Below the pieces are notes generated by a model. It had not been told where the DNA came from, searched no databases, and worked only from the letters and a program-made list of their open reading frames with translations. 64,000 nt of DNA from Mycolicibacterium diernhoferi. Its GTDB lineage: Bacteria; Actinomycetota; Actinomycetes; Mycobacteriales; Mycobacteriaceae. Below are positions 1 through 58,383 of this stretch, one piece after another (position 1 is the stretch's first letter; every line of letters starts with the position of its first letter). Where the stretch lies: the NCBI RefSeq assembly GCF_019456655.1, contig NZ_CP080332.1:2294001-2358000 (forward strand), in the 5' to 3' direction. A program made the translations under genes and the position numbers.

Positions 1-537
1 CTGGTGGATACCAACGCCGCGCAGATCATGGTGCTGCCCAACGGTTTCATCGCGGCCGAGGAGCTGGTGGCCGGCTGCACCGCGGCCACCGGGTGGGGCA
101 TCGACGTGGTGCCGGTGCCCGCCGGGTCGATGGTGCAGGGACTCGCCGCGCTCGCTGTGCATGATCCGGCCCGCCAGGGCGTGGATGACGGATACACCAT
201 GGCGCGCGCCGCGGCGGGCGCCCGGCACGGTGCGGTGCGGGTGGCCACCGAGGAGGCGCTGACCTGGGCGGGTTCCTGCAAACCCGGTGACGGGCTGGGC
301 ATTGCCGGCGATGAGGTGCTGATCGTGGGCCGGGACCTGGCCGCCGCCGGGGCCGGGCTGATCGACCTGCTGCTGGCCGCCGGCGGGGAGTTGGTCACCG
401 TGCTGATCGGCGCCGGTGTCGACGAGAAAGTGGGCGAACGTTTGCGTGACCATGTGCGGCAACGACATCTGGGTGTCGAACTGGTGAGTTACCGCACCGA
501 CCATCACGGTGACGCCCTGCTGATCGGGGTCGAATAG
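1..537 (+). CDS. YloV/FakA-like DAK2-family protein, C-terminal fragment
   Basis: The frame is open from the left edge, so the start and the N-terminal kinase (DhaL-like) domain lie outside the window. The visible roughly 178 residues resemble the C-terminal part of YloV/FakA proteins, which in firmicutes bind acyl groups and help phosphorylate fatty acids; whether the actinobacterial protein does this is not known from the sequence. The visible text includes a V-L-P-N-G stretch and a Gly/Ala-rich alternating pattern typical of that domain. It ends 2 bp before recG, the same neighbour order as in M. tuberculosis, so the two are probably co-transcribed. The family call rests on synteny and overall pattern. 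Confidence 0.75.
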   Translation: MVDTNAAQIMVLPNGFIAAEELVAGCTAATGWGIDVVPVPAGSMVQGLAALAVHDPARQGVDDGYTMARAAAGARHGAVRVATEEALTWAGSCKPGDGLGIAGDEVLIVGRDLAAAGAGLIDLLLAAGGELVTVLIGAGVDEKVGERLRDHVRQRHLGVELVSYRTDHHGDALLIGVE

Positions 538-539
538 CC

Positions 540-2768
540 GTGGTCGCACTCAACGATCTGCTCGCTCCCATCATCGGTTCCAAGGCCTCCGACAAGCTGG
601 AAGAGGCGTTCGGTATCCGCACCGTGAACGATCTGCTGCGGCACTATCCGCGCAAGTACAGCGACGGGATGAGCGTGCGCGAAGAAGGCGAGGCGATCGA
701 ACTCGAAGAGGGTTCGCATGTCACCTTCGTCGACGTCATCACCAAGGCCGAGGCCAACTACATGCGCAGGCAGACCGGCAAGAGGCAGCGAAAGTTCCTG
801 CGGGTCACCCTGGGCGAGCGCAATCCACCGATCACGGCGACCTTCTTCAACGCCGAGTTCCTCGAGAAGAGCCTGACCGAAGGCACCCGGGTGATGCTGT
901 CCGGGGAGATCGGCTACTTCCGGAACACGATGCAACTGTCCCATCCCGCGTTCCTGGTGATCGACTCGCCGACCGGAAGGACCATCGGCACCCGGTCGTT
1001 CGCGAAGATCGCCGATGCGTCCGGAGAGTCCGGCGCGGGCGTGCTGGCGGCGTTCGAGAAGGACTTCTTCCCGATCTACCCGGCGACCAAGAAGCTGCAG
1101 AGCTGGGACATCTACGCCTGCGTGCAGCAGGTGCTGGCCGTGCTCGATCCGATACCGGAGCTGCTTCCGGAATCCTTTCTGCGGCAATGGGATCTGGTGT
1201 CCGAAGACAAGGCGCTGCGGGGCGTGCACATGTCCGAGAACGCCATCGAGCGGGCCGCGGCGCAGGAACGGCTGACCTACGACGAGGCGATCGGGCTGCA
1301 GTGGGCGCTGGTGTCACGGCGCTACGGCGAACTCGGGGAGACCGGTCCGCCCGCCCCGCGCCGCGACGACGGTCTGGCGGCCGCTCTGCTCGGGCAGCTA
1401 CCGTTCGAGTTGACCAACGGGCAGCGCGAGGTGCTCGAGGTGATCTCCGAAGAATTGGCCGGGGCCCGGCCGATGAACCGGATGCTGCAGGGCGAGGTCG
1501 GATCCGGCAAGACCATCGTCTCGATCCTGGCGATGCTGCAGATGGTGGATGCTGGCATGCAGTGCGCGCTGCTGGCGCCCACCGAGGTGCTCGCCGCGCA
1601 GCACTACCGGTCCATCCGCCAGGTGCTCGGGCCGCTCGCGATGGCCGGGGAACTCGGTGCGGCCGACGGCGCGACGGCGATCACCTTGCTCACCGGCTCT
1701 ATGTCGCCGGCGCAGAAACGCCAGGCACGTGATGAGATCTATTCCGGCACAGCGGGAATCGTCGTGGGCACCCATGCCATCATCCAGGAGTCGGTGGAGT
1801 TCAGCCGGCTGGGCATGGTGGTTGTCGACGAGCAACACCGGTTCGGTGTCGAGCAACGTGACCGGTTGCGCGCCAAGGCCACCGGCGGCATCACCCCGCA
1901 TCTGCTGGTGATGACCGCGACGCCGATCCCGCGGACCATCGCGCTCACGGTGTTCGGCGACCTGGAGACCTCGACCTTGCGCGAGTTGCCCCGCGGCCGG
2001 CAGCCCATCGCCAGCAATGTGGTGTTCACCAAGGACAAACCGTCCTGGCTGGACCGGGCGTGGGCACGGATCGTCGAGGAGGTCGCCGCCGGCCGGCAGG
2101 CCTATGTGGTGGCCTCGCGCATCGACGAGGAACCCGACAAGAAGAACGCCTATGAGCACGGCCCGCCGCCGGTCACCGTGCTGCAGGTGCTGGAACGGTT
2201 GAGCACCGGCCCGCTGGCCGGGTTGCGGCTCGGTCTGATGCACGGGCGGCTGGCGCCCGAGGAGAAGGACGCGGTGATGTCCGCGTTCCGGGCCGGTGAG
2301 ATCGACGTGCTGATCTGCACCACCGTCATCGAGGTCGGCGTGGACGTCCCCAACGCCACCATGATGGTGGTGATGGACGCCGACCGGTTCGGCATCAGCC
2401 AGCTCCACCAGCTGCGCGGGCGGATCGGCCGCGGGCAGCATCCGAGCCTGTGCCTGCTGGTGACGCGGATGCCGGAGAGCTCCAAGGCGGGGGAGCGGTT
2501 GCGCGCGGTGGCCGGCACGCTGGACGGCTTCGCGCTGGCCGACCTCGACCTGCAGGAGCGTCAGGAGGGAGATGTGCTGGGCTACAACCAGTCCGGACGT
2601 CTCACCACCCTGCGATTCCTGTCCCTGGCCGATCACCTGGGCATCATCCAGGACGCCCGCAGCTTCTGCGAGTCGGCGTATCTGGACAACCCGTACCAGC
2701 CCGGGCTGGATGTGCTCGCCGCGCCGTTCCGCAACTCCGACCGCGTGCAGTACCTGGACAAGTCGTGA
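540..2768 (+). CDS. recG: ATP-dependent DNA helicase RecG
   Basis: Superfamily 2 helicase of 742 residues that remodels stalled replication forks and branched recombination intermediates. An N-terminal wedge/OB region is followed by the helicase core: Walker A GEVGSGKT near residue 318, the DEQHRFG Walker B box near 429, the TATPIPRT motif near 460, and the LHQLRGRIGRG motif VI near 621. Length is close to mycobacterial RecG. The GTG start lies 2 nt after the preceding stop, and its stop overlaps the next GTG in a GTGA, suggesting translational coupling within one operon. Confidence 0.97.
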   Translation: MVALNDLLAPIIGSKASDKLEEAFGIRTVNDLLRHYPRKYSDGMSVREEGEAIELEEGSHVTFVDVITKAEANYMRRQTGKRQRKFLRVTLGERNPPITATFFNAEFLEKSLTEGTRVMLSGEIGYFRNTMQLSHPAFLVIDSPTGRTIGTRSFAKIADASGESGAGVLAAFEKDFFPIYPATKKLQSWDIYACVQQVLAVLDPIPELLPESFLRQWDLVSEDKALRGVHMSENAIERAAAQERLTYDEAIGLQWALVSRRYGELGETGPPAPRRDDGLAAALLGQLPFELTNGQREVLEVISEELAGARPMNRMLQGEVGSGKTIVSILAMLQMVDAGMQCALLAPTEVLAAQHYRSIRQVLGPLAMAGELGAADGATAITLLTGSMSPAQKRQARDEIYSGTAGIVVGTHAIIQESVEFSRLGMVVVDEQHRFGVEQRDRLRAKATGGITPHLLVMTATPIPRTIALTVFGDLETSTLRELPRGRQPIASNVVFTKDKPSWLDRAWARIVEEVAAGRQAYVVASRIDEEPDKKNAYEHGPPPVTVLQVLERLSTGPLAGLRLGLMHGRLAPEEKDAVMSAFRAGEIDVLICTTVIEVGVDVPNATMMVVMDADRFGISQLHQLRGRIGRGQHPSLCLLVTRMPESSKAGERLRAVAGTLDGFALADLDLQERQEGDVLGYNQSGRLTTLRFLSLADHLGIIQDARSFCESAYLDNPYQPGLDVLAAPFRNSDRVQYLDKS

Positions 2769-3469
2769 AACGGATCGGCCTGCTGGCGGCGGGGGCCGCG
2801 CTGGCGGTGCTGGTCGCGGTTCAGGTCACCACGCAACCCGGTGCGGACTCGGTGCGCTACGTCGCCGAGGCCGAGACCCCCACCGTGGCCCCGGGCGTCG
2901 ACGTGCTGGCCGGCGTCCCCGAGATCCCGCTGCGCATCCGCGGTTACGACTACCGGCGCGCGGCGTTCGGGGAATCCTGGGATGACGACAACGATGCCCC
3001 GGGCGGGCGCAACGGCTGCGATACCCGCAACGACATCTTGGACCGTGATCTGGTCGAGAAGTCCTATGTGTCCATCAAACGGTGCCCGACAGCCGTGGCG
3101 ACCGGCACGCTGATCGACCCGTACACCAATGCCTCTGTCGCGTTCGTGCGTGGCAACCAGACCGGCGCGTCGGTGCAGATCGACCACATCGTGCCGCTGG
3201 CACTGGCCTGGGATCTGGGTGCGCGCAACTGGTCTGATCAGATGCGGCTGCGGTTCGCCAACGATCCGGCCAACCTGCTGGCGGTGTCCGGGGCGGCCAA
3301 CCAGAACAAGGGCGATGGTGAGCCGGCGGTGTGGATGCCGCAGAACCGGGCGTTCTGGTGCCAGTACTCGGTGCAGTTCGCCGCGGTGCTGCGCGGCTAC
3401 GGGCTGCCCGTCGACTCCCAGTCAGCCCAGGTGTTGCGGGAGGCCGCCGGGACCTGCCCGACCGGCTGA
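2765..3469 (+). CDS. Exported HNH-type (DUF1524) nuclease-like protein
   Basis: A 234-residue protein starting at a GTG that overlaps the recG stop by 4 bp. Residues 3-22 are hydrophobic after K-R, so it looks secreted or membrane-anchored. The core IDHIVPLALAWDLGA near residue 138, followed by NLLAVSGAANQNKGD, matches the DHI...N...K pattern of HNH endonucleases of the DUF1524/GmrSD-C group. Cys residues in the N-terminal and C-terminal halves could form disulfides, fitting an extracellular protein. It occupies the position of Rv2972c in M. tuberculosis. Nuclease activity is inferred from the motif; the substrate is unknown. Its last 48 bp overlap the convergent EamA gene. Confidence 0.85.
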   Translation: MKRIGLLAAGAALAVLVAVQVTTQPGADSVRYVAEAETPTVAPGVDVLAGVPEIPLRIRGYDYRRAAFGESWDDDNDAPGGRNGCDTRNDILDRDLVEKSYVSIKRCPTAVATGTLIDPYTNASVAFVRGNQTGASVQIDHIVPLALAWDLGARNWSDQMRLRFANDPANLLAVSGAANQNKGDGEPAVWMPQNRAFWCQYSVQFAAVLRGYGLPVDSQSAQVLREAAGTCPTG

Positions 3470-4366
3470 GGCGGCGCCTCGTCGGCCGGGGAGAGCGTGC
3501 GCGGGCGGCGCCGGTTGGCTCACGGTGACGGTGACGGCCGAGACCACCACGACGAGCATGGCGAACACGTGCACCCAGGTGAGGGTCTGGCCGAGCAGCA
3601 GCCAGCCGGCGGCGCCGGCGACGACCGGTTCCAGACACAGCAGCACGCCGAAAATGCGCGGGCTCATCCGGCGCATGGCCACGAATTCCAGTGAGTACGG
3701 GATCAGCGAGGACAGCAGGGCCATGCCCACCAGGGGGATCAGCACCGCCGGGACGGTGGCCGCGAGGTCGCCGACGGCCCCGACACCGAACGGGGCGACC
3801 ACGAACGCACCGATGAGGATGCCGATCGCGAGTGACCCCTGCCCGGGCATGCGGGTGGTGACCCGCTTGCCGGCCGCGATGTAGAAGGCCCAGAAGGCGG
3901 CCGCGATCAACGCGTAGCCGACACCGACGGGGTCGAGCCTGTCCCCGCCTCCGCCGCCGCCGTGTTCGCCGAAACCCAATACCGCGATGGCCGCGGCCGC
4001 CGCCAGCACCCAGCCCAGGTCGCGGCGCCGCCGGGACAATGCCGCCGAGAGCAGGAGAGGCCCGGCGAATTCGATGGTGACGGCAATGCCGAGTGGGATG
4101 CGCGCGATGGCGGCATAGAAGAACCCGTTCATGCCGGCCATGGCGAAGCCGAAGAGCAGCACGGCTTTCCAGGTGTCACGATCCCAGCCGAAGGCGCGCG
4201 GCCGGTGCAGCGCCAGCAGCAGCAGGCCCGAGATGAGCAGACGGGCGCCGGTCGTCAGCCCCGCACCGAACTGCGCCAGCAGCGGTATCGCGATCACCGC
4301 ACCCAACTGCAGCGACATGCACGACCCCAGGATCATCAGGATGCTCGACGGAGCGCGCGCGGACAT
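3422..4366 (-). CDS. EamA/RhtA-type inner-membrane exporter
   Basis: A 314-residue polytopic membrane protein with about ten hydrophobic segments arranged as two EamA repeats, as in the drug/metabolite transporter superfamily; RhtA members export threonine and homoserine. The GMNGFFYAAIARIPLGIAVT stretch and the Gly-rich insert near residues 135-145 fit this family. It is divergent from a LysR regulator 104 bp away, a common exporter/regulator arrangement, so that regulator probably controls it. The 3' end overlaps the convergent nuclease-like gene by 48 bp. The substrate cannot be read from the sequence. Confidence 0.88.
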   Translation of the reverse strand: MSARAPSSILMILGSCMSLQLGAVIAIPLLAQFGAGLTTGARLLISGLLLLALHRPRAFGWDRDTWKAVLLFGFAMAGMNGFFYAAIARIPLGIAVTIEFAGPLLLSAALSRRRRDLGWVLAAAAAIAVLGFGEHGGGGGGDRLDPVGVGYALIAAAFWAFYIAAGKRVTTRMPGQGSLAIGILIGAFVVAPFGVGAVGDLAATVPAVLIPLVGMALLSSLIPYSLEFVAMRRMSPRIFGVLLCLEPVVAGAAGWLLLGQTLTWVHVFAMLVVVVSAVTVTVSQPAPPAHALPGRRGAASAGRAGPGGLPQHLG

Positions 4367-4470
4367 GCAGCCATCCTCGACTTCGGGGCTATCATCAGTC
4401 CAGCGAGTCTTTTTGAGTCATATAGGTAAGTAATTCTGATGAATGATCGGCCGGCTGCGGGAGGCGCACC

Positions 4471-5391
4471 ATGCTGAATCTGCAGCGCCTCATCGTCCTT
4501 CACGAATTGGAACGACGTGGCTCGCTCGCCGCGGTCGCGCAGTCGCTGAACTACAGCCCCTCGGCGGTGTCCCAGCAGCTCACGACGCTGGAGCGCGAGG
4601 TGGGCACGGCACTGACCGAGCCGATCGGCCGCAGTGTCCGGCTCACCGATGCGGCGCGGATCCTGGTCGAACACACCCGGGTGGCGATCGCCGCCATCGA
4701 ATCGGCGGAGTCCGAACTCGCGGCCTCGGTGGGCGCGGTGGGCGGCAGCCTGCACATCGCCTCCCTGCAGACCGCGCTGCTGTCCCTGCTGCCGGCGGTC
4801 CTGGAGACGCTGGAGCGGGTGCACCCGGAGTTGCACGTGGACGTCTCCCAGCGCGATGTGTCCGAGGCGGCGTCGGGTCTGCTGGCGGGAACGTTCGACG
4901 TCGTGGTCGGAGAGGAGTACCCGGGCGGATCGCTGCCGGCGCGCGCCGGGTTGCACCGCAGGGATCTGGGGGCCGACGAGATGCTGCTCGCCGTGCCGGC
5001 CTCCGGTCCGTGGAGTGCGGTGAATTCGTTGTCGGAGGTCGCGACGGCGCCGTGGGCGCTGGACCCGGTGAACTCCGCGCCCGGACGGTGGGCCCGGGCC
5101 ACCTGCCGCGACAGCGGATTCGAACCCGATGTCCGGTTCGACGGGGTCGACCTGCTGGTGCACCTGCAGATGGTGCGGGCCGGGCGGGCGGTGTCGTTGG
5201 TGCCCTCGCTGCTGCGCGCGGAATGGGCGCACGGCGTGCGCCTGGTGGAACTGCGTGGTGCGCCGAGCCGGCGGCTGTTCACCCTGACCCGCAGCGCGCG
5301 GGTGGCGCATCCCGCCGTGCATGCGTTCCGGGAGGCACTGGCAACGGCATTCGACGCTCAGCGGTCCGTCGCCGCCGGCCGCGCATTCTGA
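4471..5391 (+). CDS. LysR-family transcriptional regulator
   Basis: A 306-residue protein with an N-terminal winged helix-turn-helix (residues 1-60; the recognition region contains NYSPSAVSQQLTTLE) and a C-terminal periplasmic-binding-protein-like effector domain. It belongs to the ArgP/IciA-like side of the LysR family that often pairs with amino-acid exporters. It is divergent from the EamA exporter, so it likely regulates that gene and itself from the 104-bp intergenic region, which is AT-richer than its surroundings. The ATG at 4471 follows a purine-rich GGGAGG. The effector is unknown. Confidence 0.92.
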   Translation: MLNLQRLIVLHELERRGSLAAVAQSLNYSPSAVSQQLTTLEREVGTALTEPIGRSVRLTDAARILVEHTRVAIAAIESAESELAASVGAVGGSLHIASLQTALLSLLPAVLETLERVHPELHVDVSQRDVSEAASGLLAGTFDVVVGEEYPGGSLPARAGLHRRDLGADEMLLAVPASGPWSAVNSLSEVATAPWALDPVNSAPGRWARATCRDSGFEPDVRFDGVDLLVHLQMVRAGRAVSLVPSLLRAEWAHGVRLVELRGAPSRRLFTLTRSARVAHPAVHAFREALATAFDAQRSVAAGRAF

Positions 5392-5402
5392 TCGCGGCAC
5401 CG

Positions 5403-5425
5403 ATCTACGTAGCCGGGGCGTAGAT
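5403..5425. promoter_or_regulatory. Candidate BlaI operator upstream of blaI
   Basis: A perfect inverted repeat ATCTACG-N9-CGTAGAT ends 24 bp before the blaI ATG. Its core geometry, CTACG-N9-CGTAG, recurs at 8043-8061. BlaI/MecI regulators are autoregulatory dimers that bind short dyads in their own promoter. The assignment to BlaI is inference from position and recurrence. Confidence 0.65.
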
Positions 5426-5449
5426 TGGGCTGCCAGAACGGAGGTACGG

Positions 5450-5827
5450 ATGCAGCAGCGGGGGTTCGGTGATCTCGAAGCCACGGTGATGGATCGGGTC
5501 TGGGGCCGAGAAGACGGTGTCACCGTTCGCGAGGTGTTCGAAGAACTCTGCGACGCGCGGCAGATCGCCTATACGACCGTGCTGTCCACGCTGGACAACC
5601 TGCACCGCAAGGGTTGGGTGCGTCGCGAGCGGGAGGGTAAGGCCTACCGGTACTGGGCGACCATGACCCGTGAGCAGCGCTCGGCCAACCTGATGCGGGC
5701 GGCGTTCCAGACCGGCGGCAGGCCCGAGGCCGTTCTCGCCTTCTTCGTCGAGCAGATGTCCGACGAGGAGTCGGCGCAACTGAAGGCGGCGCTGCGGTCA
5801 TCGGCCACCCAGAAGCGACGCCGATGA
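5450..5827 (+). CDS. blaI: BlaI/MecI/CopY-family transcriptional repressor
   Basis: A 125-residue winged-helix repressor. The N-terminal half has the family pattern with TVLSTLDNLHRKGWVRRE as recognition helix and wing, and the C-terminal helices provide dimerisation. Relatives repress beta-lactamase or cell-wall genes until a membrane protease is triggered by antibiotic. The ATG at 5450 is chosen because GGAGGT ends 4 nt upstream and the reading begins with M-Q-Q-R-G-F-G-D-L-E as in BlaI proteins. Its stop overlaps the M56 protease start (ATGA), giving the classical blaI-blaR pair. An inverted repeat immediately upstream suggests autoregulation. Confidence 0.93.
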   Translation: MQQRGFGDLEATVMDRVWGREDGVTVREVFEELCDARQIAYTTVLSTLDNLHRKGWVRREREGKAYRYWATMTREQRSANLMRAAFQTGGRPEAVLAFFVEQMSDEESAQLKAALRSSATQKRRR

Positions 5828-6738
5828 CGGCCGCGGTCTATCTGCTGCTCTACGGGATACTGGTGACCTGGCTGGCACCGCCGCTGCTGTCACGGTTGAC
5901 TCGGGGTGGCCTGAATCCGCGCCTGGGGGTGGCAGTTTGGCTCACCGCGATCCTCGGGGTGCTGGCAGCCTGGTCGGTCGCGGTCGTCCTGACCGTCGTG
6001 CACGGTGTGCGCGGGCTGCCCGAATCCCCGGTGATCGTGGTGTGTCTGGAGTTGCTCGGCATCCCCGAACAGGTTGCCACACCGAGTGTGGAGGGCACCG
6101 TGCTGCTCATCGCTGCCGCCGTGCTGCTGTGGACGGTGGTCGGGGTGCGGGCGGGCCGGGCCGTGCGCGGGCTGTGGGCGAGCAGTCGTGAGCACGCGCA
6201 GGCGGCCCGGTTGATCGGTGAGCCCACCGACCGCCCGGATGTCTTCGTGCTGAACGCCGAACGGCCGGCCGCGTACTGCGTGGCGGGCCGCCCGAATGCC
6301 ATCGTGGTGACCAGCGCCGCGGTCGAGCGCCTCACCGGATCACAACTGGATGCGGTGCTGGCGCACGAGAACGCCCACATCACCGGTCGTCACCACCAGT
6401 TGTTGATGGTGCTGCGGGCGCTGGCCGCGACCCTGCCCCGGTTGCCGTTGTTCCCGCGTGCCGCGGACGCGGTCGGCGAACTGCTGGAGATGTGCGCCGA
6501 TGACCTCGCCGCTCGCCGGCACGGCGGCCGAACCCTGGTGGCCGGGATGGTCAAGCTGGCCGGGCCGGTCGCACCGGCGGGTCTCGGAGTCGCCGCGTCC
6601 GCGATCACCCGGCGGGCCAACCGGCTGCTGATACCGGCGCACCCCGGCAGCCTGCGGTGTCACCGGGTGACCGCCTGGGCCACCATCGCGGTGACCGTGG
6701 CGGCGCCGGTGGTGGTCAACCTGATCTGTCGGCACTGA
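5824..6738 (+). CDS. BlaR1/M56-family membrane zinc metallopeptidase
   Basis: A 304-residue polytopic membrane protein with hydrophobic segments near residues 1-20, 35-60 and 90-110 and another at the C-terminus. The zinc motif H181-E-N-A-H185 matches the HExxH of M56 peptidases. Unlike staphylococcal BlaR1 it has no C-terminal penicillin-binding sensor domain, like the short BlaR of M. tuberculosis. The 4-bp overlap with blaI argues that it inactivates that repressor, directly or indirectly. With no sensor domain, the inducing signal must come from elsewhere or from the membrane part; this is inference. Confidence 0.9.
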   Translation: MTAAVYLLLYGILVTWLAPPLLSRLTRGGLNPRLGVAVWLTAILGVLAAWSVAVVLTVVHGVRGLPESPVIVVCLELLGIPEQVATPSVEGTVLLIAAAVLLWTVVGVRAGRAVRGLWASSREHAQAARLIGEPTDRPDVFVLNAERPAAYCVAGRPNAIVVTSAAVERLTGSQLDAVLAHENAHITGRHHQLLMVLRALAATLPRLPLFPRAADAVGELLEMCADDLAARRHGGRTLVAGMVKLAGPVAPAGLGVAASAITRRANRLLIPAHPGSLRCHRVTAWATIAVTVAAPVVVNLICRH

Positions 6739-6774
6739 TCCCGCTGCGCTCCGGCGCGCCGAACCACTGACCGA

Positions 6775-8001
6775 TCAGGTGACGGCGTTACCGGCCTTCC
6801 ACTGCGACCAGGGGATGTTCCAGTCGCCGAGGCCGTCGGTCCCCGACAGCGTCGGCCCGACGGTGTTGACCACTTCGACGATGTCGCCACGTTTGGTGTT
6901 GTCGTAGAACCACTTCGCGTTCTCGGTGCTGACGTTCAGGCATCCGTGGCTGACGTTCGCCCGGCCCTGGCTGCCCACCGACCACGGCGCGGCGTGCACG
7001 AAGATCCCGCTGTAGGACATCCGGGTTGCCCACTTCACCTCGGTGCGGTATCCGTCCGGGGAGTTCACCGGTACACCGTAGGTCGACGAGTCCATCACCA
7101 GGTCGGCGAGGCGCTCGGCGATGATGTAGGTGCCGTTGTCGGTGGGTGTCTTGTCCTTACCCATCGAGATCGGCATCGTCTTGGCCACTTCGCCGTTGAC
7201 GCGCACCGTGAGGGTCTTGGTGGCGTCGTCGGCGGTGGCGATGACCTCATCGCCGATGGTGAATCGGGTGCTGGCGTCGTCCTGGCCGAACAGCCCGTCG
7301 CCCAGGTCGACTCCGTAGGTCTTCGCCTGGACTTCGACGGTGGTACCGGGCTTCCAGTATTTCGCTGGGCGCCAGCGCACTTCGCGGCCACTGATCCAGT
7401 AGAAGGCGCCCTCCACCGCGGGTTTGGTGGTGACGGTGATGGCGCGTTGGGCGGCCAGCCGGTCGGGAATGACCTCGTCGAAGGTCACCGAGATGGGCTG
7501 GCCGACGCCGACCACCGCGCCGTCGCCGGGCATCAGGTAGGGCATCGTCAGATACTGCGGGGAGTGGGTCTCGAAGGTGGCGCTGGTCCGCGTCACCCCG
7601 CCGAGGCCGAATGCGGCTGCGGTGAGGGTGTATTCCTTGTTGTAGCCCAGCGGCTCGGCCGAACGCCATGAGACGCCGTCGGGGCTCAGCTCACCGTCGA
7701 CCACCCGGCCCTGCGCGTTGACCAGAGTCACCTCGTCGAGGACGCCGGCCTCGACGCTCACCGTCACCGGCTGCTCCACCGACACCCCGATGTCGCCCTC
7801 GGTGACCGAGGACTTCAGTTTCGGGACGAGCAGATCGCCGTACGGCGTGCCCTTGTCGGTGACGGTCTGGGCCGTCGGGGGTGCGGGAGCGGTGCTGCAG
7901 GCGTTCAACCCGAGGATGAGGGCGAGCACGGCGAGCAGTGTCAGTGGGACACCCAGAAAGTTTCGTCGTCTGACGGTTGCCGATGTCATCCGCCGCATCA
8001 C
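6775..8001 (-). CDS. ldtB: L,D-transpeptidase lipoprotein, LdtMt2-like
   Basis: A 408-residue lipoprotein that makes 3-3 cross-links in peptidoglycan and is inhibited by carbapenems in characterised relatives. The signal peptide ends in lipobox LNAC with lipidated Cys35. Two Ig-like domains (about 50-250) precede the YkuD domain, whose catalytic motif is H336 ... S-H-G-C354, the same numbering as LdtMt2 of M. tuberculosis as I recall it. The C-terminal [15 protein letters not shown] also matches. It is divergent from the DsbA-like/serine-hydrolase operon across a 116-bp region holding a candidate BlaI dyad, which suggests control by the BlaI encoded 1.2 kb away. Confidence 0.95.
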
Positions 8002-8042
8002 CGTTGTCCTGCCGTGTGTCGAAGTGCCGTTGCGCTAACATC

Positions 8043-8061
8043 CTACGTAGCGACTACGTAG
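8043..8061. promoter_or_regulatory. Second candidate BlaI operator between ldtB and the DsbA-like gene
   Basis: Two copies of the palindrome CTACGTAG are separated by CGA. Read as one dyad this is CTACG-N9-CGTAG, the same arm sequence and spacing as the site before blaI. It lies 42 bp upstream of the ldtB start and 57 bp upstream of the DsbA-like start, so one bound dimer could affect both divergent promoters. Binding is inferred. Confidence 0.6.
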
Positions 8062-8117
8062 ATGCACGTCAGCGCGGGTGCCCGGCGCCGTCAGCCGCGG
8101 ATCGGGGGAGAAGTCCA

Positions 8118-8777
8118 GTGCTCAAGACTCGGGCCGGGCGGGCGGTGATCACCGCCGTCGGCGTCCTGATCATCGTGGCGGTGGCGATCGTCGTGTTGAT
8201 CAAGGGCGGCGACCGCGAGCGCGGTGCCGAGACGGCGGAGACCGGATCGGCGCAGGTGGTGCGCGACAGCAGTCATCGACTCACCGACCCGCGCGATGCG
8301 CAGGCGACCTTCGTGGAATTCCTCGACTTCGAATGCGAAGGCTGCCGCGCCGCCTATCCCATCGTGGAACAACTGCGCGCGGAGTACGGCGACCGGGTCG
8401 AGTTCGTCCTGCGCTATTTTCCGCTGTCCGGGCACTACAACGGCGAGCGCGCCGCCCGTGCCGTGGAAGCCGCCGCACAGCAGGGCCGGCTGGAGGCGAT
8501 GTACCGAAAGATGTTCGAAACACAGGCCGAATGGGGGGAGCAGCGAGTGCCCGCCGACGGTGTGTTCCGCGGTTTCGCCGAGGAGCTCGGGCTGGACATG
8601 GCGGCATTCGACAAGGCCTACGACGAGCCGGCGACACTGGAACGCATCCGGGTCGACCAGCGAGATGGCGAGCTGCTGGGTGTGCAGGGCACGCCCACCT
8701 TCTTCGTCGACGGCGAGCAGATCCTGGTGCGCAGCGTGGACGATCTGCGAAACGCCATCGACGGCGCCTTGCGGTGA
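8118..8777 (+). CDS. Membrane-anchored DsbA-like thioredoxin-fold protein
   Basis: A 219-residue protein with one N-terminal transmembrane helix (about residues 10-28) and an extracytoplasmic thioredoxin fold. The redox motif is C73-E-G-C76 and the cis-Pro loop is GTPTFF near residue 190, with the helical insert of the DsbA/DSBA_Thioredoxin_4 class. The start is GTG at 8118, preceded by GGGGGAG at 8104-8110. It overlaps the next gene by 4 bp, so the two form an operon. It differs from the CPHC DsbA encoded at 15896 and has no VKOR next to it. It may serve the disulfide of its operon partner, which has Cys residues near the mature N-terminus; that is inference. Confidence 0.88.
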   Translation: MLKTRAGRAVITAVGVLIIVAVAIVVLIKGGDRERGAETAETGSAQVVRDSSHRLTDPRDAQATFVEFLDFECEGCRAAYPIVEQLRAEYGDRVEFVLRYFPLSGHYNGERAARAVEAAAQQGRLEAMYRKMFETQAEWGEQRVPADGVFRGFAEELGLDMAAFDKAYDEPATLERIRVDQRDGELLGVQGTPTFFVDGEQILVRSVDDLRNAIDGALR

Positions 8778-9598
8778 CCCGGATCTGTGGGCCGCTCGCG
8801 GTCCTGCTGCTGTGCCTAGCGCTGGTCGCGGCGCCACCGGCAGCGGCGACCTGCACGGCAGGCGATGCGCAATGTGTGCTGCGCCAGCGCATCGCGACGG
8901 CCGAGGCGTACATCGCGGGGCGGCCGGGAACGATCGGGTTCGTGCTGCGCGACCGGGTGACCGGCGCCCGGTATCGCAGCGCCGCGGCCGCAACCCCGAT
9001 CTGGACCGCGTCGACGATCAAACTGGCGATGGTCGCCGATCTGTTGACCCGCGAGCAGTCCGGCGCGCTGCGCCTCAGCGCGGCGGACCGCCATCAGATG
9101 GCGGCGATGCTGCGCAGTTCGGACAACGACGCCGCCGACGACCTGTGGTCGCGCTACGGCGGACCGGCCAACGTGTTCAACGTCGGCTTCCTCCGGTACG
9201 GGATGGCAAGCGTGCGGCCCCAGCCCGGATTCGGGGATGTCTACCCGTACTGGGGGTTCCAGAAGGGCACCGCCGACGATTTCGACGCCCTGATGAACTA
9301 TGTGCTGACCGGTCTCACCCCGGCCAACGCCGCCGCGGTGATCGCCGAGATGCAGCGGGTCGACCGTTCGCAACAGTGGGGTGTCTGGGGCGCCGGCTCC
9401 GCGATGTCGCCGGGCAACAAGAACGGCTGGTCGCAGGAAGAGGGCGGCTGGGTGGTCAACTCCGTCGGTTTCGCCGGGCCGGGGCAGCGCTACACGTTGG
9501 CCATCATGAACGCGCTGGGCGGACGGGGCGGATACGACGACGGCGTGCAGACGACGACCGAGGTGGCACGAATTCTGCTGGGGCCCAGCGGCGGTTAG
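8774..9598 (+). CDS. Secreted class A beta-lactamase-like serine hydrolase
   Basis: A 274-residue exported protein: the signal peptide (about residues 1-26, ending in A-A-A) is followed by Cys residues in C-T-A-G-D-A-Q-C. It has the penicillin-recognising fold motifs S80-T-I-K83, S116-D117-N118, and a K-N-G triad near residue 216 in place of the usual K-T/S-G. Relatives hydrolyse beta-lactams, but many mycobacterial members are of unknown activity, and the Asn in the KTG position and an unassigned Glu166 equivalent leave that open. The GTG start at 8774 overlaps the DsbA-like stop. The location downstream of a candidate BlaI site supports a cell-wall-stress role. Confidence 0.82.
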   Translation: MTRICGPLAVLLLCLALVAAPPAAATCTAGDAQCVLRQRIATAEAYIAGRPGTIGFVLRDRVTGARYRSAAAATPIWTASTIKLAMVADLLTREQSGALRLSAADRHQMAAMLRSSDNDAADDLWSRYGGPANVFNVGFLRYGMASVRPQPGFGDVYPYWGFQKGTADDFDALMNYVLTGLTPANAAAVIAEMQRVDRSQQWGVWGAGSAMSPGNKNGWSQEEGGWVVNSVGFAGPGQRYTLAIMNALGGRGGYDDGVQTTTEVARILLGPSGG

Positions 9599-10251
9599 CC
9601 CGCCGGTTGCCAGCCGTACATCGCGGTGTCCATCTGGTCGTCGTCCAGCGGGTCGACGGGCAGGCGGATCTGGCCATCCCGGCGCCGCAGACCTTCGAGC
9701 AGCAGGGCGACGTAGCGATGCCACAGCTCGGGTTCGACATGGCCGGCCCATTCGCTCACGGTGCCGGCCAGCAGGCTCAGGATCGGCATATCGGTGTGCG
9801 CGGCATCGGCGCGCAGGTAGCCGTCGGTGCGGGCCCGCTCGAACAGCCGGGAGACCGGGGGCACCAGCCGCTGCCGGGCGCACGCCACCGAGTACCCGCC
9901 GTAGGCCGTGCTGAACACCATCTCCCGCAGGCCGCGGTCGGTCGCCGTCAGCCCGCACATCTGCTCGACGAACCACACGAACCCGTCCCACGAGTTCGGC
10001 TGCGCGAGAGCCGATTCTGCCAGGGCCACGATCTGGTCGATGGCGCTTTCGAAGATGGCGTCCAGCAATTCCTCTTTGGTGGCGAACCGCCGGTACACCG
10101 TGCCGACACCCACCCCGGCGTGGTGGGCCACATCGTTGAGGGTGGCTTCAAGGCCGCGCTGGGCGAACAGGTCACGTGCCGCATCGAGGATGCGTTGCCG
10201 ATTTCGCTGGGCGTCCTTGCGTAGGGTGCGGGGTTCGTCGACGGATGTCAT
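9595..10251 (-). CDS. TetR-family transcriptional regulator
   Basis: A 218-residue regulator with an N-terminal TetR helix-turn-helix at residues 15-60 (RILDAARDLFAQRGLEAT followed by VGVGTVYRRFATKEEL) and an all-helical ligand domain. It is the second gene of a two-regulator operon, its ATG overlapping the stop of the upstream TetR gene by 4 bp. Its stop codon overlaps that of the convergent serine hydrolase (9595-9598). Targets are unknown. Confidence 0.92.
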   Translation of the reverse strand: MTSVDEPRTLRKDAQRNRQRILDAARDLFAQRGLEATLNDVAHHAGVGVGTVYRRFATKEELLDAIFESAIDQIVALAESALAQPNSWDGFVWFVEQMCGLTATDRGLREMVFSTAYGGYSVACARQRLVPPVSRLFERARTDGYLRADAAHTDMPILSLLAGTVSEWAGHVEPELWHRYVALLLEGLRRRDGQIRLPVDPLDDDQMDTAMYGWQPAG

Positions 10252-10859
10252 CGCTGGTCCCGTTGCGCGGTGACCGCGCTGCCGAGCCAGCGCCGCAGGA
10301 ACTTTCGCAGTTCCTCCGGGGAGCGTCGGGCGTCGTTGGGGGCCACGAAGAAGGACAGCATGATCCGCAGGGTGAACTCGACCAGCTCCTGCAGGCTGGC
10401 CTCGTCGTATCCGTGTGCAGCCCAGTCCACATCGAAGCGGTCGATCATCCGCATGCCGATGGCGCGAGCCTCTTCCGAGGTGAGGTCCTCAGTGTGGTTG
10501 TGCGGGTAGGACTCCGAGAGCAGGATGCCCAGATGCGGGGTGCGCCCGACCTCGGCGAGCGTGAACAGCGTGCCCTCGGTGAGGGCCTCGGCCGGATCGT
10601 GGATGCCGCGCACGTGGGTGGCCAGTCGGTCCAGGAAGGCGTCGACCGAGCCCATCGCCACCGCCCGCATCAACGCGTCGGAGGTGGGGAAGTAGCGGTA
10701 CACGGTCTGGCGGATGATGCCGAGCGAGGTGGCGACATCGGCCAGGGAGATGGCTTTCCCGGTGGCGCTGACCAGGTCGACGGCCGCGGTGACGATGCGG
10801 CGGGTGGCTTCCTCATCGGTCTGGGGTGGATCTCCGCCCCAACCGCGCCTGCGTGCCAT
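10248..10859 (-). CDS. TetR-family transcriptional regulator
   Basis: A 203-residue TetR protein: helix-turn-helix around residues 20-65 (SLADVATSLGIIRQTVYRYF) and a helical C-terminal domain. I start it at the ATG at 10859 (M-A-R-R-R-G-W) because the frame further upstream runs into the divergent promoter and lacks TetR-like sequence. It is the first gene of a two-TetR operon and is divergent from the ferritin-like hydrolase gene. The intergenic region carries a dyad (10911-10940) suited to TetR binding, so autoregulation and control of the divergent pair are likely. Confidence 0.9.
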   Translation of the reverse strand: MARRRGWGGDPPQTDEEATRRIVTAAVDLVSATGKAISLADVATSLGIIRQTVYRYFPTSDALMRAVAMGSVDAFLDRLATHVRGIHDPAEALTEGTLFTLAEVGRTPHLGILLSESYPHNHTEDLTSEEARAIGMRMIDRFDVDWAAHGYDEASLQELVEFTLRIMLSFFVAPNDARRSPEELRKFLRRWLGSAVTAQRDQR

Positions 10860-10910
10860 CGTCGTCTTTCGCTCGTGAGTCGGAGAACGCGACGGTAGCA
10901 CGCACCGGTA

Positions 10911-10940
10911 ATCATACAAGTAAACGTTGATGCGTATGAT
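10911..10940. promoter_or_regulatory. Divergent promoter with inverted repeat, candidate TetR operator
   Basis: ATCATAC and GTATGAT form perfect 7-bp arms 16 bp apart. Each arm contains TATGAT on the outgoing strand, a good mycobacterial -10 hexamer, so the arms probably overlap the two divergent promoters. A regulator bound here would block both directions. The location between a TetR gene and its divergent neighbour supports this; it is inferred from sequence. Confidence 0.6.
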
Positions 10941-10959
10941 CGTGTGATAGTTTCCGGCC

Positions 10960-11910
10960 ATGACCAACCTGCAAGTACGCAAGATGCGGTTCGGCTTCGC
11001 CGATCACGACGTCCCCTTCCTGTGGAACGAGGCCAACCCGGCGTTCTCCGCGATGGCCAACGCAGTGTCCTTCCTGGCGATCGCGTTCGAGAAGATGATC
11101 GTCACCACCATGACCGAGGCCAAGCCGCTGCTCACCGACCCGGTCATCGCCGAGGAGGCCGACGCCTTCACCCGGCAGGAGGGTCAGCATTCGATGGCCC
11201 ACCGCCAGCACGCCAAGGGGCTCATCAAGGCCTACCCGGCGCTCAAGGAGACCCTCGACGAGGTGATCAAGTCGTTCGACGACCTGGTCGCCACCAAGTC
11301 GCTGAAGTACCGGCTGGCCTACACCGCCGACCTGGAGGCGACCTTCACGCCGGTGTTCAAGCTCATGCTCGACAACGACGACCGGTTGTTCGCCCCCGGC
11401 GACGACCGGGTGGCCTCACTGTTCCTGTGGCACTTCGTGGAAGAGGTCGAACACCGCAGCTCCGCGCTCATCATCTACGACGGACTCGTCGATGACCCCT
11501 GGTACCGCATGCGGGTCGCGCCCTCGGTCTTCAAGCACGTGCTCGACGTGGTCCGGATGGCCTGCGAAGGCTTCAACAAACACCTTCCGCTGGAGGTGCG
11601 CAAGGTCGACGCCATGTCCGCGTTCGCGTTGGAAGGCCGAAAGAACAAGCTGCTGAGGCGAATCGGGCTTCGCCCCGACTACGGCCCACTGGAGAACGCT
11701 TTCGCCGGTCTGTCCAAGCGCGAGATGGCCGCCGCACTGGTCGGCATCGTGCGCAGCCAGATCCCCGGCCACAACCCAGAACACGAAAAGCTCCCGGTGC
11801 TGGCCGGAGAATGGTTCGATCGCTTCGACGCCGGTTACGACGTAACCCAGTGGTACACGGCGAACACGCCCGCCGCCGGCTCCGAGGACAAGAAAGCAGC
11901 CGATGTCTGA
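10960..11910 (+). CDS. Ferritin-like predicted metal-dependent hydrolase (PF10118 type)
   Basis: A 316-residue, mostly helical protein. E/H motifs FTRQEGQHSMAHRQHAKG (near residue 70) and HFVEEVEHRS (near 160) give an E-x-x-H arrangement expected for a di-metal site in the predicted metal-dependent hydrolase family; catalytic activity of that family is poorly defined. It overlaps the next membrane-protein gene by 8 bp, so the two likely act together, perhaps in lipid metabolism, and is divergent from a TetR operon. TATGAT at 10935-10940, 19 bp before the ATG, is a plausible -10. Confidence 0.82.
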   Translation: MTNLQVRKMRFGFADHDVPFLWNEANPAFSAMANAVSFLAIAFEKMIVTTMTEAKPLLTDPVIAEEADAFTRQEGQHSMAHRQHAKGLIKAYPALKETLDEVIKSFDDLVATKSLKYRLAYTADLEATFTPVFKLMLDNDDRLFAPGDDRVASLFLWHFVEEVEHRSSALIIYDGLVDDPWYRMRVAPSVFKHVLDVVRMACEGFNKHLPLEVRKVDAMSAFALEGRKNKLLRRIGLRPDYGPLENAFAGLSKREMAAALVGIVRSQIPGHNPEHEKLPVLAGEWFDRFDAGYDVTQWYTANTPAAGSEDKKAADV

Positions 11911-13046: not shown

Positions 13047-13099
13047 ACGACTTCGGCGCGTTTACGTACGTTCTCCGTACGTAAACGCGCCGAAATCGT
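13047..13099. terminator. Long hairpin between convergent genes (bidirectional terminator)
   Basis: Two 24-nt arms (13047-13070 and 13076-13099) pair with a single mismatch around a 5-nt loop TTCTC. The hairpin sits exactly between the stop codons of a plus-strand membrane gene and a minus-strand aldo/keto reductase. There is no U-tract, as is common for mycobacterial terminators. Confidence 0.8.
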
Positions 13100-56613: not shown

Positions 56614-57429
56614 TCAGGGCCGGCTGAAACCCCAGTCCAGCAGGCCGATGGCCTGGCCGTACAGATCGCCGGTTCCGTACATCTGCACCACGACCAGGCG
56701 ACGGTCACCGCGCTGAGCTGCCCCGACATAGGTTTTGCGGGCCAGGTTCGTATACCCGGTCTTGCCGCCCAGGTCGCCGGGATACCGGCTGAGCAACTCG
56801 TTCTGGTTGGACAGCGTCTTACCGGGGAACGCGGCGGACGGGGAGCGCATGATCTGCGCGATCAACGGATAGCGCAGAGCGGCCCGGAAGATGACCGCCA
56901 GATCGTGCGGGGTGGTGATCGACTCCCACCCCGGCCCGTCCAGCCCGGACGGGGAGGACGCCTTGGTGCTGCGGGCCCCGACGGCGGCGGCTTTGCGGTT
57001 CATGGCGGCGACCGCCGCGCGCTGACCGCCGAGCATGTCGGCGAGCATGTTCGCCGAATCGTTGCCCGACACCATCAGTAGCGCGCTCAGCAGCTGGGTC
57101 ACGGTGTACGGCTGGCCGGGTTTGAGCCCCACGCAGGAACATTCGACCTTGGTGTGCGAGTCGTTGGCGCGGGCGAAGTTGTCGGGCCGCAGATGGTCGA
57201 GCACCACCATGGCCAGCAGCACCTTGATGGTGCTGGCCGGGGCGTAGCGGCCGTGCGCATCCTTGGCGGCCAGTACCGCGCCGGTGTCCAGATCGGCGAG
57301 CAGGTAGGCCTTGGCCGGTCCGTTCGCAAACGATTGCGCGCCAGCGGGTTCCACATTGGGCGTGGCCTGTGCAGGCGCCGCCAGGACCGTGCTGAGGGCG
57401 AGCGCGGTCGCCGCGAACAGGTGTCGCAC
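56614..57429 (-). CDS. D-alanyl-D-alanine carboxypeptidase (tandem copy, DacB-like)
   Basis: A 271-residue secreted penicillin-binding protein trimming peptidoglycan stem pentapeptides. A signal peptide (about 1-22, ending A-P-A-Q-A) is followed by the S-x-x-K motif in RYAPASTIKVLLA, the SGN motif in MVSGNDSANM and the KTG motif in LGGKTGYTNLA. The GTG at 57429 gives V-R-H-L-F-A-A-T and a proper signal peptide. It lies 78 bp downstream of a paralogue on the same strand; one of them corresponds to Rv2911 DacB2. Confidence 0.93.
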   Translation of the reverse strand: MRHLFAATALALSTVLAAPAQATPNVEPAGAQSFANGPAKAYLLADLDTGAVLAAKDAHGRYAPASTIKVLLAMVVLDHLRPDNFARANDSHTKVECSCVGLKPGQPYTVTQLLSALLMVSGNDSANMLADMLGGQRAAVAAMNRKAAAVGARSTKASSPSGLDGPGWESITTPHDLAVIFRAALRYPLIAQIMRSPSAAFPGKTLSNQNELLSRYPGDLGGKTGYTNLARKTYVGAAQRGDRRLVVVQMYGTGDLYGQAIGLLDWGFSRP

Positions 57430-57507
57430 CCGCGAGAGGCTACGGGCCCCAGGACTCGTTCCGTGCCCGGGAAGGTATCTGTCGGGTCTCGACCAGAGCA
57501 CCCCGCA

Positions 57508-58383
57508 CTACAGGACCCCGATGCCGGCCGACCGGTCCTGCACGAAACCCCAATCCAACAGGGCCGACGCCTGATCCCAGTAGGTCGGGCCGCCCTCGCG
57601 GACCAGCCCGTACATCAACGCGACCACGAGGCGTCGGCCGTCGCGCTGCGCGGCGCCGACGAACGTCTTACGCGCAAGATCGGTGAATCCGGTCTTGCCG
57701 CCCAGCGTGCCGGGATAGCGGCCCAGCAACTCGTTCTGGTTGACCAGCACGCGGTCACCGGTCCTGCCCGGGAACACCGCCGTGGGTTGCGCGGTGATCT
57801 GGCCGAACACCGGGTCGGCCAGCGCGGCCCGGAACAGCACCGCCAGGTCGTGCGGCGAGGACCACATCTCGATACCGGGCCCGTCCAGGCCGGACGGACT
57901 GCCCGCCACGGTGGCGTGCGCGCCCAATTGTGCGGCCTTCGCGTTCATCTTCGCCACGGCCGCCTCCCGGCCGCCGAGCATGGTGGCCAACGTGTTTGCT
58001 GCGTCGTTGCCCGACACCAGCAGCAAGCCTTCCAACAGTTGACGCACCGTGTAGGTCTGGCCGGGCGCCACGCCCGCGCAGTTGCACTCGACCCGGGTGT
58101 CGGCCTCCTCGGCCACCACGGTCGCCTCCAGCGGCAGTTCCTCGAGCACCACCGTGGCCAACAGCACCTTGATGGTGCTGGCCGGCGCGTAGCGCCCGTA
58201 CCCGTCCCGAGAGGCCAGGACCGCACCGCTGTCCATATCCGCGATCACCCAGGCCTGTGCAGGTCCATCCGGTATCGGCACCGATCCCAGCGGCTGATCG
58301 ACACCGGGAACGGCGCCCGCCGAACCGGTGCTGACGGTGAGCAAACAGAGCGCAGAGATGAGACCGGCGGCAAGCCTTCGCAT
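57508..58383 (-). CDS. D-alanyl-D-alanine carboxypeptidase (tandem copy, DacB-like)
   Basis: A 291-residue penicillin-binding protein with an N-terminal signal peptide (about 1-24, ending S-A-G-A) and the three active-site motifs RYAPASTIKVLLA, VSGNDAANTLA and LGGKTGFTDLA. A Cys pair in VECNCAG matches the VECSCVG of the paralogue, which suggests a conserved disulfide that would need the DsbA system. Motif spacing is the same in both copies, pointing to tandem duplication. It is divergent from the NAGGN cassette. Confidence 0.93.
   Translation of the reverse strand: MRRLAAGLISALCLLTVSTGSAGAVPGVDQPLGSVPIPDGPAQAWVIADMDSGAVLASRDGYGRYAPASTIKVLLATVVLEELPLEATVVAEEADTRVECNCAGVAPGQTYTVRQLLEGLLLVSGNDAANTLATMLGGREAAVAKMNAKAAQLGAHATVAGSPSGLDGPGIEMWSSPHDLAVLFRAALADPVFGQITAQPTAVFPGRTGDRVLVNQNELLGRYPGTLGGKTGFTDLARKTFVGAAQRDGRRLVVALMYGLVREGGPTYWDQASALLDWGFVQDRSAGIGVL

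Follow-up and report, generated by a model that had tools for sequence, protein, structure and literature searches.

A 64,000-nucleotide stretch of the Mycolicibacterium diernhoferi genome (contig NZ_CP080332.1, positions 2,294,001 to 2,358,000 of the forward strand; hereafter the window) carries a blaI-type repressor gene and an M56-type membrane protease gene beside an L,D-transpeptidase gene (ldt) and a divergent two-gene operon (dsb-bla) encoding a DsbA-like protein and a serine hydrolase of the class A beta-lactamase fold. Our main conclusion, which is well supported by comparison, is that ldt and dsb-bla form a BlaI-controlled regulon, with predicted binding of BlaI to their shared promoter and a predicted response of both transcription units. 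With about even confidence, we propose that this regulon is a chromosomal, reduced form of a Mycobacteriales-wide BlaI/M56 regulon that serves an envelope thiol- and metal-stress response. Metal or thiol damage, and not an antibiotic, may be what triggers it; this is suggested because the protease has no penicillin sensor and because many relatives lie in heavy-metal resistance islands.

The first-pass annotation of this stretch had read a dyad of the form CTACG-N9-CGTAG in both promoters, and both dyads are exact, at 5405-5423 and 8043-8061. The BlaI-type operator in the blaI promoter (5403..5425, plus strand, core 5405-5423) scores 23.4 with the position matrix described below and overlaps a TAGATT -10-like element at 5421-5426, which was read by eye. 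The operator in the divergent ldt/dsb-bla promoter (8041..8063, core 8043-8061, no strand assigned) scores 27.5 and consists of two CTACGTAG palindromes with 3 bp between them. By eye, it abuts a TAACAT at 8036-8041 on the plus strand and overlaps a TAGGAT at 8045-8040 on the minus strand. The next-best site in the window, at 13064 (score 19.0), was weighed as a possible third operator and discarded, as it belongs to an inverted repeat between the 3' ends of convergent open reading frames (ORFs). This repeat (13060-13086), with two 11-bp arms and a 5-base loop, is terminator-like and mimics an operator.

Across the 6.0-Mb genome, CTACG-N9-CGTAG occurs exactly at three places, two of which are the window sites; the pattern read backwards occurs at 24. 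A refined form, CTACG-N7-TACGTAG, is matched without mismatch only at the two window sites and with one mismatch at four places. Thirteen places lie within two mismatches of a degenerate 23-base consensus, and only the two window sites score at least 20. The third exact dyad (G000:1197542-1197560, locus L001) reaches a matrix score of only 16.5 and lies between two divergent ORFs that read as alcohol dehydrogenase-like and oxidoreductase-like genes. The operator was not found at the genome's other six YkuD loci (best score 9.7, about 3.4 kb per locus), nor at the six Beta-lactamase2 loci listed by a family search (best 6.9, about 3.4 kb each), a search that was incomplete in that the window's own hydrolase is missing from its list. 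A beta-lactamase gene under the same operator was sought among these six listed loci and not found, and a box shared with the genome's Rv1846c-like blaI was rejected, with a best matrix score of -0.4 in its 3.3-kb locus (L004). With the matrix applied to these chosen loci and to the near-consensus places, the regulon looks local in this genome, because no site appears at the other YkuD, the listed Beta-lactamase2 or the Rv1846c-like loci and only the window sites score at least 20.

Comparison with related loci supports the earlier proposal of a compact local regulon with a BlaI-type operator in the divergent promoter. Relatives of the window BlaI were profiled at 80 loci kept of 296, from Mycolicibacterium, Mycobacterium, Nocardia, Rhodococcus and others; the nearest among those kept, from M. 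aurum, is 97% identical. The window and the 12 nearest loci (L020-L031) make up 13 window-type loci. The dyad lies before dsb or between ldt and dsb in nine of these 12, with ldt present in seven (L020-L023, L026, L028 and L029) and absent in L025 and L027. Of the remainder, L024 is truncated by its contig end; in L030 and L031, where neither ldt nor site was seen, the M56 gene is immediately followed by the hydrolase gene. We also aligned 13 loci with the ldt/dsb arrangement, leaving out copies of the same genomes. Here the dyad is exact in 10 loci and differs at the last base in three (L032, L033 and L148), and 12 of its 19 columns are invariant (C48-G52, A54 and T60-A65, first-row numbering), which makes it the densest invariant block of the region. 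An exact dyad also lies no more than 250 bp upstream of 23 of the 80 blaI genes, compared with 0.06 expected from letter shuffles, and many loci of Nocardia, Rhodococcus and Amycolatopsis carry the same motif ahead of blaI.

Family searches agreed with the gene identities as first described, namely BlaI, an M56-type protease, an LdtMt2-like enzyme, a DsbA-like protein with a CEGC motif and a beta-lactamase-like protein. The blaI-type gene (5450..5827, plus strand) encodes a 125-aa repressor that scores 89.7 bits with Penicillinase_R (PF03965), above the curated cut-off of 22.6. Its closest solved structure, at just 66.8 bits, is 2g9w, which we take to be M. tuberculosis BlaI. Besides this gene, the genome has one other of the Penicillinase_R family, at G000:3399204; it adjoins its own M56 gene, outscores the window BlaI against PF03965 (102 versus 89.2 bits) and is, by eye, much closer to 2g9w. 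That copy reads as the Rv1846c-like BlaI, and the window BlaI as its paralogue. The window BlaI has a single Cys in its 125 residues and thus no CxC metal motif, and with the CopY_TcrY equivalog model it scores 36 bits, below the cut-off of 121.95.

Overlapping blaI by 4 bp is the gene for the M56-type, BlaR1-like membrane metalloprotease (5824..6738, plus strand), which Pfam assigns to Peptidase_M48. The protein has a membrane M56 protease domain with HExxH, and its structural model matches BlaR1 residues 1-294. By sequence, its one match to solved structures is a weak one to HtpX, and Foldseek ranked Ste24/BepA chains beside BlaR1, none at E <0.001. The first-pass annotation proposed sensing by the M56 protease; sensing of beta-lactams by the protease itself is not supported: the protein has no C-terminal extracellular penicillin-binding sensor, as it is 304 aa long and ends 2 residues past Cys302, and 78 relatives are 260-333 aa in length.

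Two cysteines sit where, based on predicted topology, BlaR1 has its signalling loop and its sensor. Cys74 (codon 6043..6045, plus strand) lies in the predicted extracytoplasmic loop between transmembrane helices 2 and 3 (TM2-TM3), and Cys302 (codon 6727..6729, plus strand) at the end of the last predicted helix. Position 74 is Cys in 73 of 75 distinct sequences and position 302 in 70 of 75, while both are present in 68 of the 75 family rows and in 120 of 120 among the matches listed (of 426 M56 homologues). Neither cysteine occurs in four Rv1845c-like proteins (L224-L227), one of which (L226) is the partner of the Rv1846c-like copy. For BlaR1, the available text of PMC9834060 describes the helix 2-3 loop and the C-terminal sensor as carrying the signal.

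The first predicted target, ldt (6775..8001, minus strand), encodes an LdtMt2-type L,D-transpeptidase lipoprotein, based on YkuD and Big_10 domains and a phmmer match to the LdtMt2 structure 5k69 (E 2.4e-175). It combines an Ig-like domain with a YkuD domain bearing the Cys of SHGCLN; its cysteines are Cys35 and Cys354, the latter in this motif, and the lipobox was read by eye. There are seven YkuD genes in the genome, two of them LdtMt2-type. The second of these, at G000:4258868, is 70% identical to the window Ldt and scores higher against LdtMt2 (612.9 versus 586.6 bits), and because of this the window ldt looks like an extra copy. L,D-transpeptidases are the target of carbapenems, and they make the 3,3-cross-links by which mycobacteria tolerate most beta-lactams. 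According to the available part of PMC12729407, which cites Peters 2018, CuCl2 targets these enzymes.

On the other side of the operator, dsb (8118..8777, plus strand; PF01323, PF13462) encodes a DsbA-like thiol:disulfide protein with an N-terminal membrane anchor, judged by eye. It scores 73.2 bits with PF01323 and has CEGC at residues 73-76, as a DSBA-family protein with a CxxC. Its gene overlaps by 4 bp that of the secreted hydrolase (8774..9598, plus strand; Beta-lactamase2), which has the fold and the SxxK, SDN and KxG motifs of class A (here STIK, SDN and KNG). S80, K83, S116, D117, K216 and G218 are invariant in 44 aligned sequences, and the N of SDN is present in 29 of them. A working beta-lactamase is not supported at this level, as no Glu166 equivalent was found by alignment: the omega-loop segment of the window protein (residues 143-172) has no Glu, and no column of the 44 rows is mainly Glu. 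In the same alignment, Asp169 and Asp171 do not vary, and column 155 holds Asp or Glu in 30 of 44. The further idea that the DsbA-like protein is a dedicated disulfide enzyme for this operon stands in part. It is favored by a Cys27/Cys34 pair in 31 of 44 aligned hydrolase relatives, and the plasmid-type relatives are without this pair, so the hydrolase is weakened as a client.

To follow the operator across genera, we used a 23-position matrix made from 31 blaI-upstream sites (29 distinct) of Nocardia, Rhodococcus, Amycolatopsis and Prescottella. These sites were hand-picked from loci L042-L099 for their match to the emerging consensus; the mycobacterial loci L045, L062 and L070 were left out of training on purpose, and Nocardia loci such as L060, L064, L067, L071 and L095 by choice. 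Because training sites were chosen by consensus match, the counts of blaI as a target are partly built in, and the fair part of the test is the zero controls, the mycobacterial and other non-training loci, and the plasmids. A scan of 2.0 Mb of related loci gave 186 sites scoring at least 20, with none in reversed and none in Markov-1 copies. The 186 include training sites and repeats; 157 are distinct, with close relatives still counted apart, and a labelled gene lies within about 260 bp of 95 of these and of none of the other 62.

Target labels came solely from 225 proteins encoded in eight plasmid regions and from the seven of the window. One site may count twice. The labelled targets were BlaI (31), Dsb/thioredoxin (20), Ldt (18), RipA/B/C (7), multicopper oxidase (6), M56 (5), cytochrome oxidase subunit III (Cox III; 4), CcdA (4), MPT63 (4), Bla-like (3, one being the window's own dsb-bla operon), DUF305 (2) and CtaG (2), with single cases of CtaD, TlpA, M23, Lgt and CDF. 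Pfam families beside operator sites include NlpC/P60, Cox III, YkuD, Cox I, thioredoxin-like, CtaG, rhodanese and ResB.

Some particular arrangements of sites and genes were seen as well. In a second cluster (L032, L147, L148 and L150), an orphan blaI without M56 directly follows an NlpC/P60 gene beside ldt/dsb-bla, and further operators precede Cox III, NlpC/P60 and another dsb-ldt pair. At L085 (site 8682) and L062 (site 8259), operators lie between genes for a thioredoxin-like lipoprotein and a cyanase-like protein (by eye) and before a rhodanese gene, which read as further thiol or sulfur targets. Conserved operators also surround a BlaI-M56 pair at L038, L041 (sites near 50, 2936 and 7537) and L039, where the target genes are mostly without a label.

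The context of relatives was also read on annotated plasmids. Twelve plasmid regions were chosen from match lists (10, 86 and 96 records; gene tables incomplete), and 11 contain clear resistance genes for copper, cadmium, mercury or arsenic: M. gallinarum pJCM6399, R. erythropolis, M. poriferae, M. crocinum, M. lentiflavum, R. opacus pROB01, R. fascians, M. vanbaalenii, R. pseudokoreensis, R. pyridinivorans and M. aubagnense. The twelfth, M. gilvum Spyr1, has only DUF305 and F510_1955 genes of this kind. The first eight regions hold 35 sites scoring at least 16 (0 in shuffles) and the last four hold 19 (0 in reversed copies), none within a listed gene. Site centres lie 72 bp (R. opacus) and 65 bp (R. 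pseudokoreensis) upstream of multicopper oxidase genes and 50 bp upstream of ctaD in both M. gallinarum and M. vanbaalenii.

A tblastn count covering about 6 kb around each locus recorded metal, oxidase or cytochrome-biogenesis genes at 17 of the other 22 mycobacterial BlaI-like loci, with two or more kinds at 13 of them, compared with 2 of 20 control stretches, which were 12.3 kb long and evenly placed in the window genome and nine other genomes of the genus. This count dropped L024 (contig end) and the copies L035, L050 and L055. The ldt-dsb-bla modules found in metal context are about as similar to the window's as other window-type modules are, with Ldt identities to the window of 83-87% at L032, L033 and L148 and 75% at L040, and they fall among the window-type modules in a tree of 11 loci. 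In this tree, L040 groups with L029 (support 100) and L032/L033/L148 lie near L022/L023 with a support of only 38-45, so that transfer between the two kinds of module may have run in either direction.

The genes, sites, conservation, missing sensor and cysteines shown above at the sequence level can be assembled into a candidate mechanism. BlaI-type repressor dimers would bind operators of the form CTACGTA-N5-TACGTAG, one of which would cover the back-to-back promoters of the extra ldt and the dsbA-like/serine-hydrolase operon and keep both shut, with a second acting on the blaI-M56 promoter in some strains. On trouble outside the membrane, the M56 protease would inactivate BlaI, as BlaR1 does, and its putatively extracytoplasmic C74 and C302 would most likely sense copper or other thiophilic metals, or the oxidation of thiols. 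Derepression would then supply a fresh thiol-dependent wall enzyme, the Ldt with its catalytic cysteine, along with a disulfide enzyme whose likely client is the co-encoded hydrolase. In metal islands, related repressors would add oxidases, cytochrome-c biogenesis and further wall enzymes. A more specific version, which we offer tentatively and hold at somewhat below even confidence, is that of a BlaR-type signalling protease in which an extracytoplasmic Cys pair replaces the penicillin sensor, with one Cys in the TM2-TM3 loop and the other at the point where that sensor would be attached. Such a protease would govern a BlaI regulon of thiol-dependent envelope enzymes (Ldt, NlpC/P60, Dsb/TlpA/CcdA) that travels in plasmid heavy-metal islands of actinobacteria and was domesticated on this chromosome.

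Several observations weigh against this thiol- and metal-stress proposal. Chief among them, the tblastn count of metal, oxidase or cytochrome-biogenesis genes within about 6 kb gave 0 for the 11 window-type loci, and window positions 1-11450 likewise hold none. Genes of these kinds lie near just 9 of 43 chromosomal loci of Nocardia, Rhodococcus and Amycolatopsis, including one Mycobacterium metagenome-assembled genome (L098), and in R. erythropolis no site scoring at least 16 precedes Ldt or BlaI. Of the 13 window-type loci, the blaI-promoter dyad was seen in only 3 (the window itself, L021 and L023), the others having mostly a TAGATT-like -10 without it, and the operator is present in no more than 13 of 39 regions that surround the strongest relatives of the hydrolase. 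The window BlaI is also without the CxC motif of CopY. The hydrolase Cys27/Cys34 pair is missing as aligned in 13 of 44 rows, plasmid types among them. The M56 cysteines could be structural, and the Cys74 loop is modelled at pLDDT <60. Finally, in an order-wide sample of 32 ORFs from 30 loci in 41 genomes, some of them not M56, neither cysteine was assigned in 23, the loop cysteine only in 4, the tail cysteine only in 3 and both in 2 (L229 and L230); by the crude topology rule used, the single-Cys ORFs count on the same side.

An alternative close to the first-pass annotation is a beta-lactam-responsive regulon, in which Ldt and the beta-lactamase-like protein are released by BlaI once a carbapenem or penicillin has been sensed in trans, for example by the hydrolase in the role of a split BlaR sensor. 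The BlaI/BlaR homology speaks for it, as do the established role of Ldt as a carbapenem target and the hydrolase itself, whose class A fold without a Glu166 equivalent is expected of a slowly deacylating binder. We nevertheless judge it unlikely, given that the protease has no sensor domain, that the operator was not found at the six other listed Beta-lactamase2 loci, that relatives' operators precede oxidase and multicopper oxidase genes, and that many BlaI-M56 pairs in the related loci had no Bla-like gene detected nearby. The beta-lactam reading is weak, because there is no penicillin sensor, no Glu166 could be shown and the BlaI does not read as the Rv1846c-type copy. The carbapenem link is one that we only infer; the surroundings of relatives are at least as indicative of metal or thiol stress, although those of the window-type loci (0/11) are not.

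It is also doubtful that the system is a general envelope-damage regulon, in which M56 responds to any disturbance of membrane or peptidoglycan, whatever its origin, with the metal islands merely carrying a useful repair kit. The presence of Ldt, NlpC/P60 endopeptidases, an M23 peptidase and an Lgt-like gene among the targets would suit this explanation, and so would the lack of metal genes at window-type loci, but it leaves unexplained both the near-invariant cysteines and the operators before multicopper oxidase and cytochrome-oxidase genes. Very improbable, in our view, is that the 8043 site belongs to a different regulator or to the promoter itself, with ldt and dsb-bla outside blaI control. 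The blaI promoter has no site in most window-type loci, which would allow for this; however, the same motif recurs upstream of blaI in Nocardia, Rhodococcus and Amycolatopsis and was not found at the unrelated loci tested.

The regulon proposed here shares with S. aureus BlaI/BlaR1 and MecI/MecR1 a Penicillinase_R repressor and an M56 membrane protease encoded adjacent to each other. It differs in that the protease has a conserved cysteine pair and lacks the C-terminal penicillin sensor of BlaR1/MecR1, and in that its targets are Ldt and Dsb-hydrolase genes rather than bla or mec. The operator differs as well: the TACA-NN-TGTA of BlaI/MecI was not found at the two window sites, which are both CTACG-N9-CGTAG, with a TAC-N11-GTA spacing and without TACANNTGTA. 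M. tuberculosis BlaI (Rv1846c), encoded with Rv1845c, belongs to the same repressor family as the window BlaI, based on the 2g9w match. The available text of PMC8265638 describes it as the major repressor of blaC, with sigC and atpH in its regulon. In contrast to the window pair, this genome's separate Rv1846c-like pair combines the low matrix score given above (-0.4) with an M56 protein that has neither cysteine.

The CopY/CopR copper repressors resemble the window system in superfamily, in operators with TAC/GTA half-sites and, through the relatives, in a link to copper genes, but the window BlaI has a protease partner, lacks CxC and falls below the CopY_TcrY cut-off (36 < 121.95). The CopY operator is given as RNYKACANNTGTMRNY in the available part of PMC7253601. 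The hydrolase is about 18% identical to the LRA-5 class A beta-lactamase precursor (8eo5, 8eo7), and differs from it in having an N-terminal Cys pair and a co-encoded DsbA-like protein. In the titles and abstract openings of the open-licence literature searched, we found no report of BlaI control of an L,D-transpeptidase, as the first-pass annotation had anticipated, or of a cysteine-sensing M56 partner.

If the Cys-switch regulon exists as proposed, metals would control a class of wall enzymes that carbapenems target, and if the extra ldt answers thiol or metal stress via BlaI/M56, metals could alter carbapenem susceptibility. It would also mean that BlaI-family genes are misread as antibiotic regulators in genome annotation. 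The window M56 protein, as a natural BlaR1-like protease without the sensor, could serve as a model for how such proteases are activated.

Elsewhere in the window, two adjacent genes on the minus strand (56614-57501 and 57508-58383) encode secreted SxxK serine peptidases of the Beta-lactamase2 family that read like D-alanyl-D-alanine carboxypeptidases; a BlaI-type operator was not found in the stretch scanned around them (best score 5.3). In three loci of other genomes (L110, L111 and L117), a dsb relative without the operator directly follows a Dyp-type/EfeB peroxidase-like gene. Four Rhodococcus plasmid regions (L187, L193, L255 and L256) carry, in their metal islands, spare genes for lipoprotein maturation (lnt, lgt or lspA) together with TlpA/CcdA and M23 genes, and these sets read as a recurrent envelope-maintenance kit.

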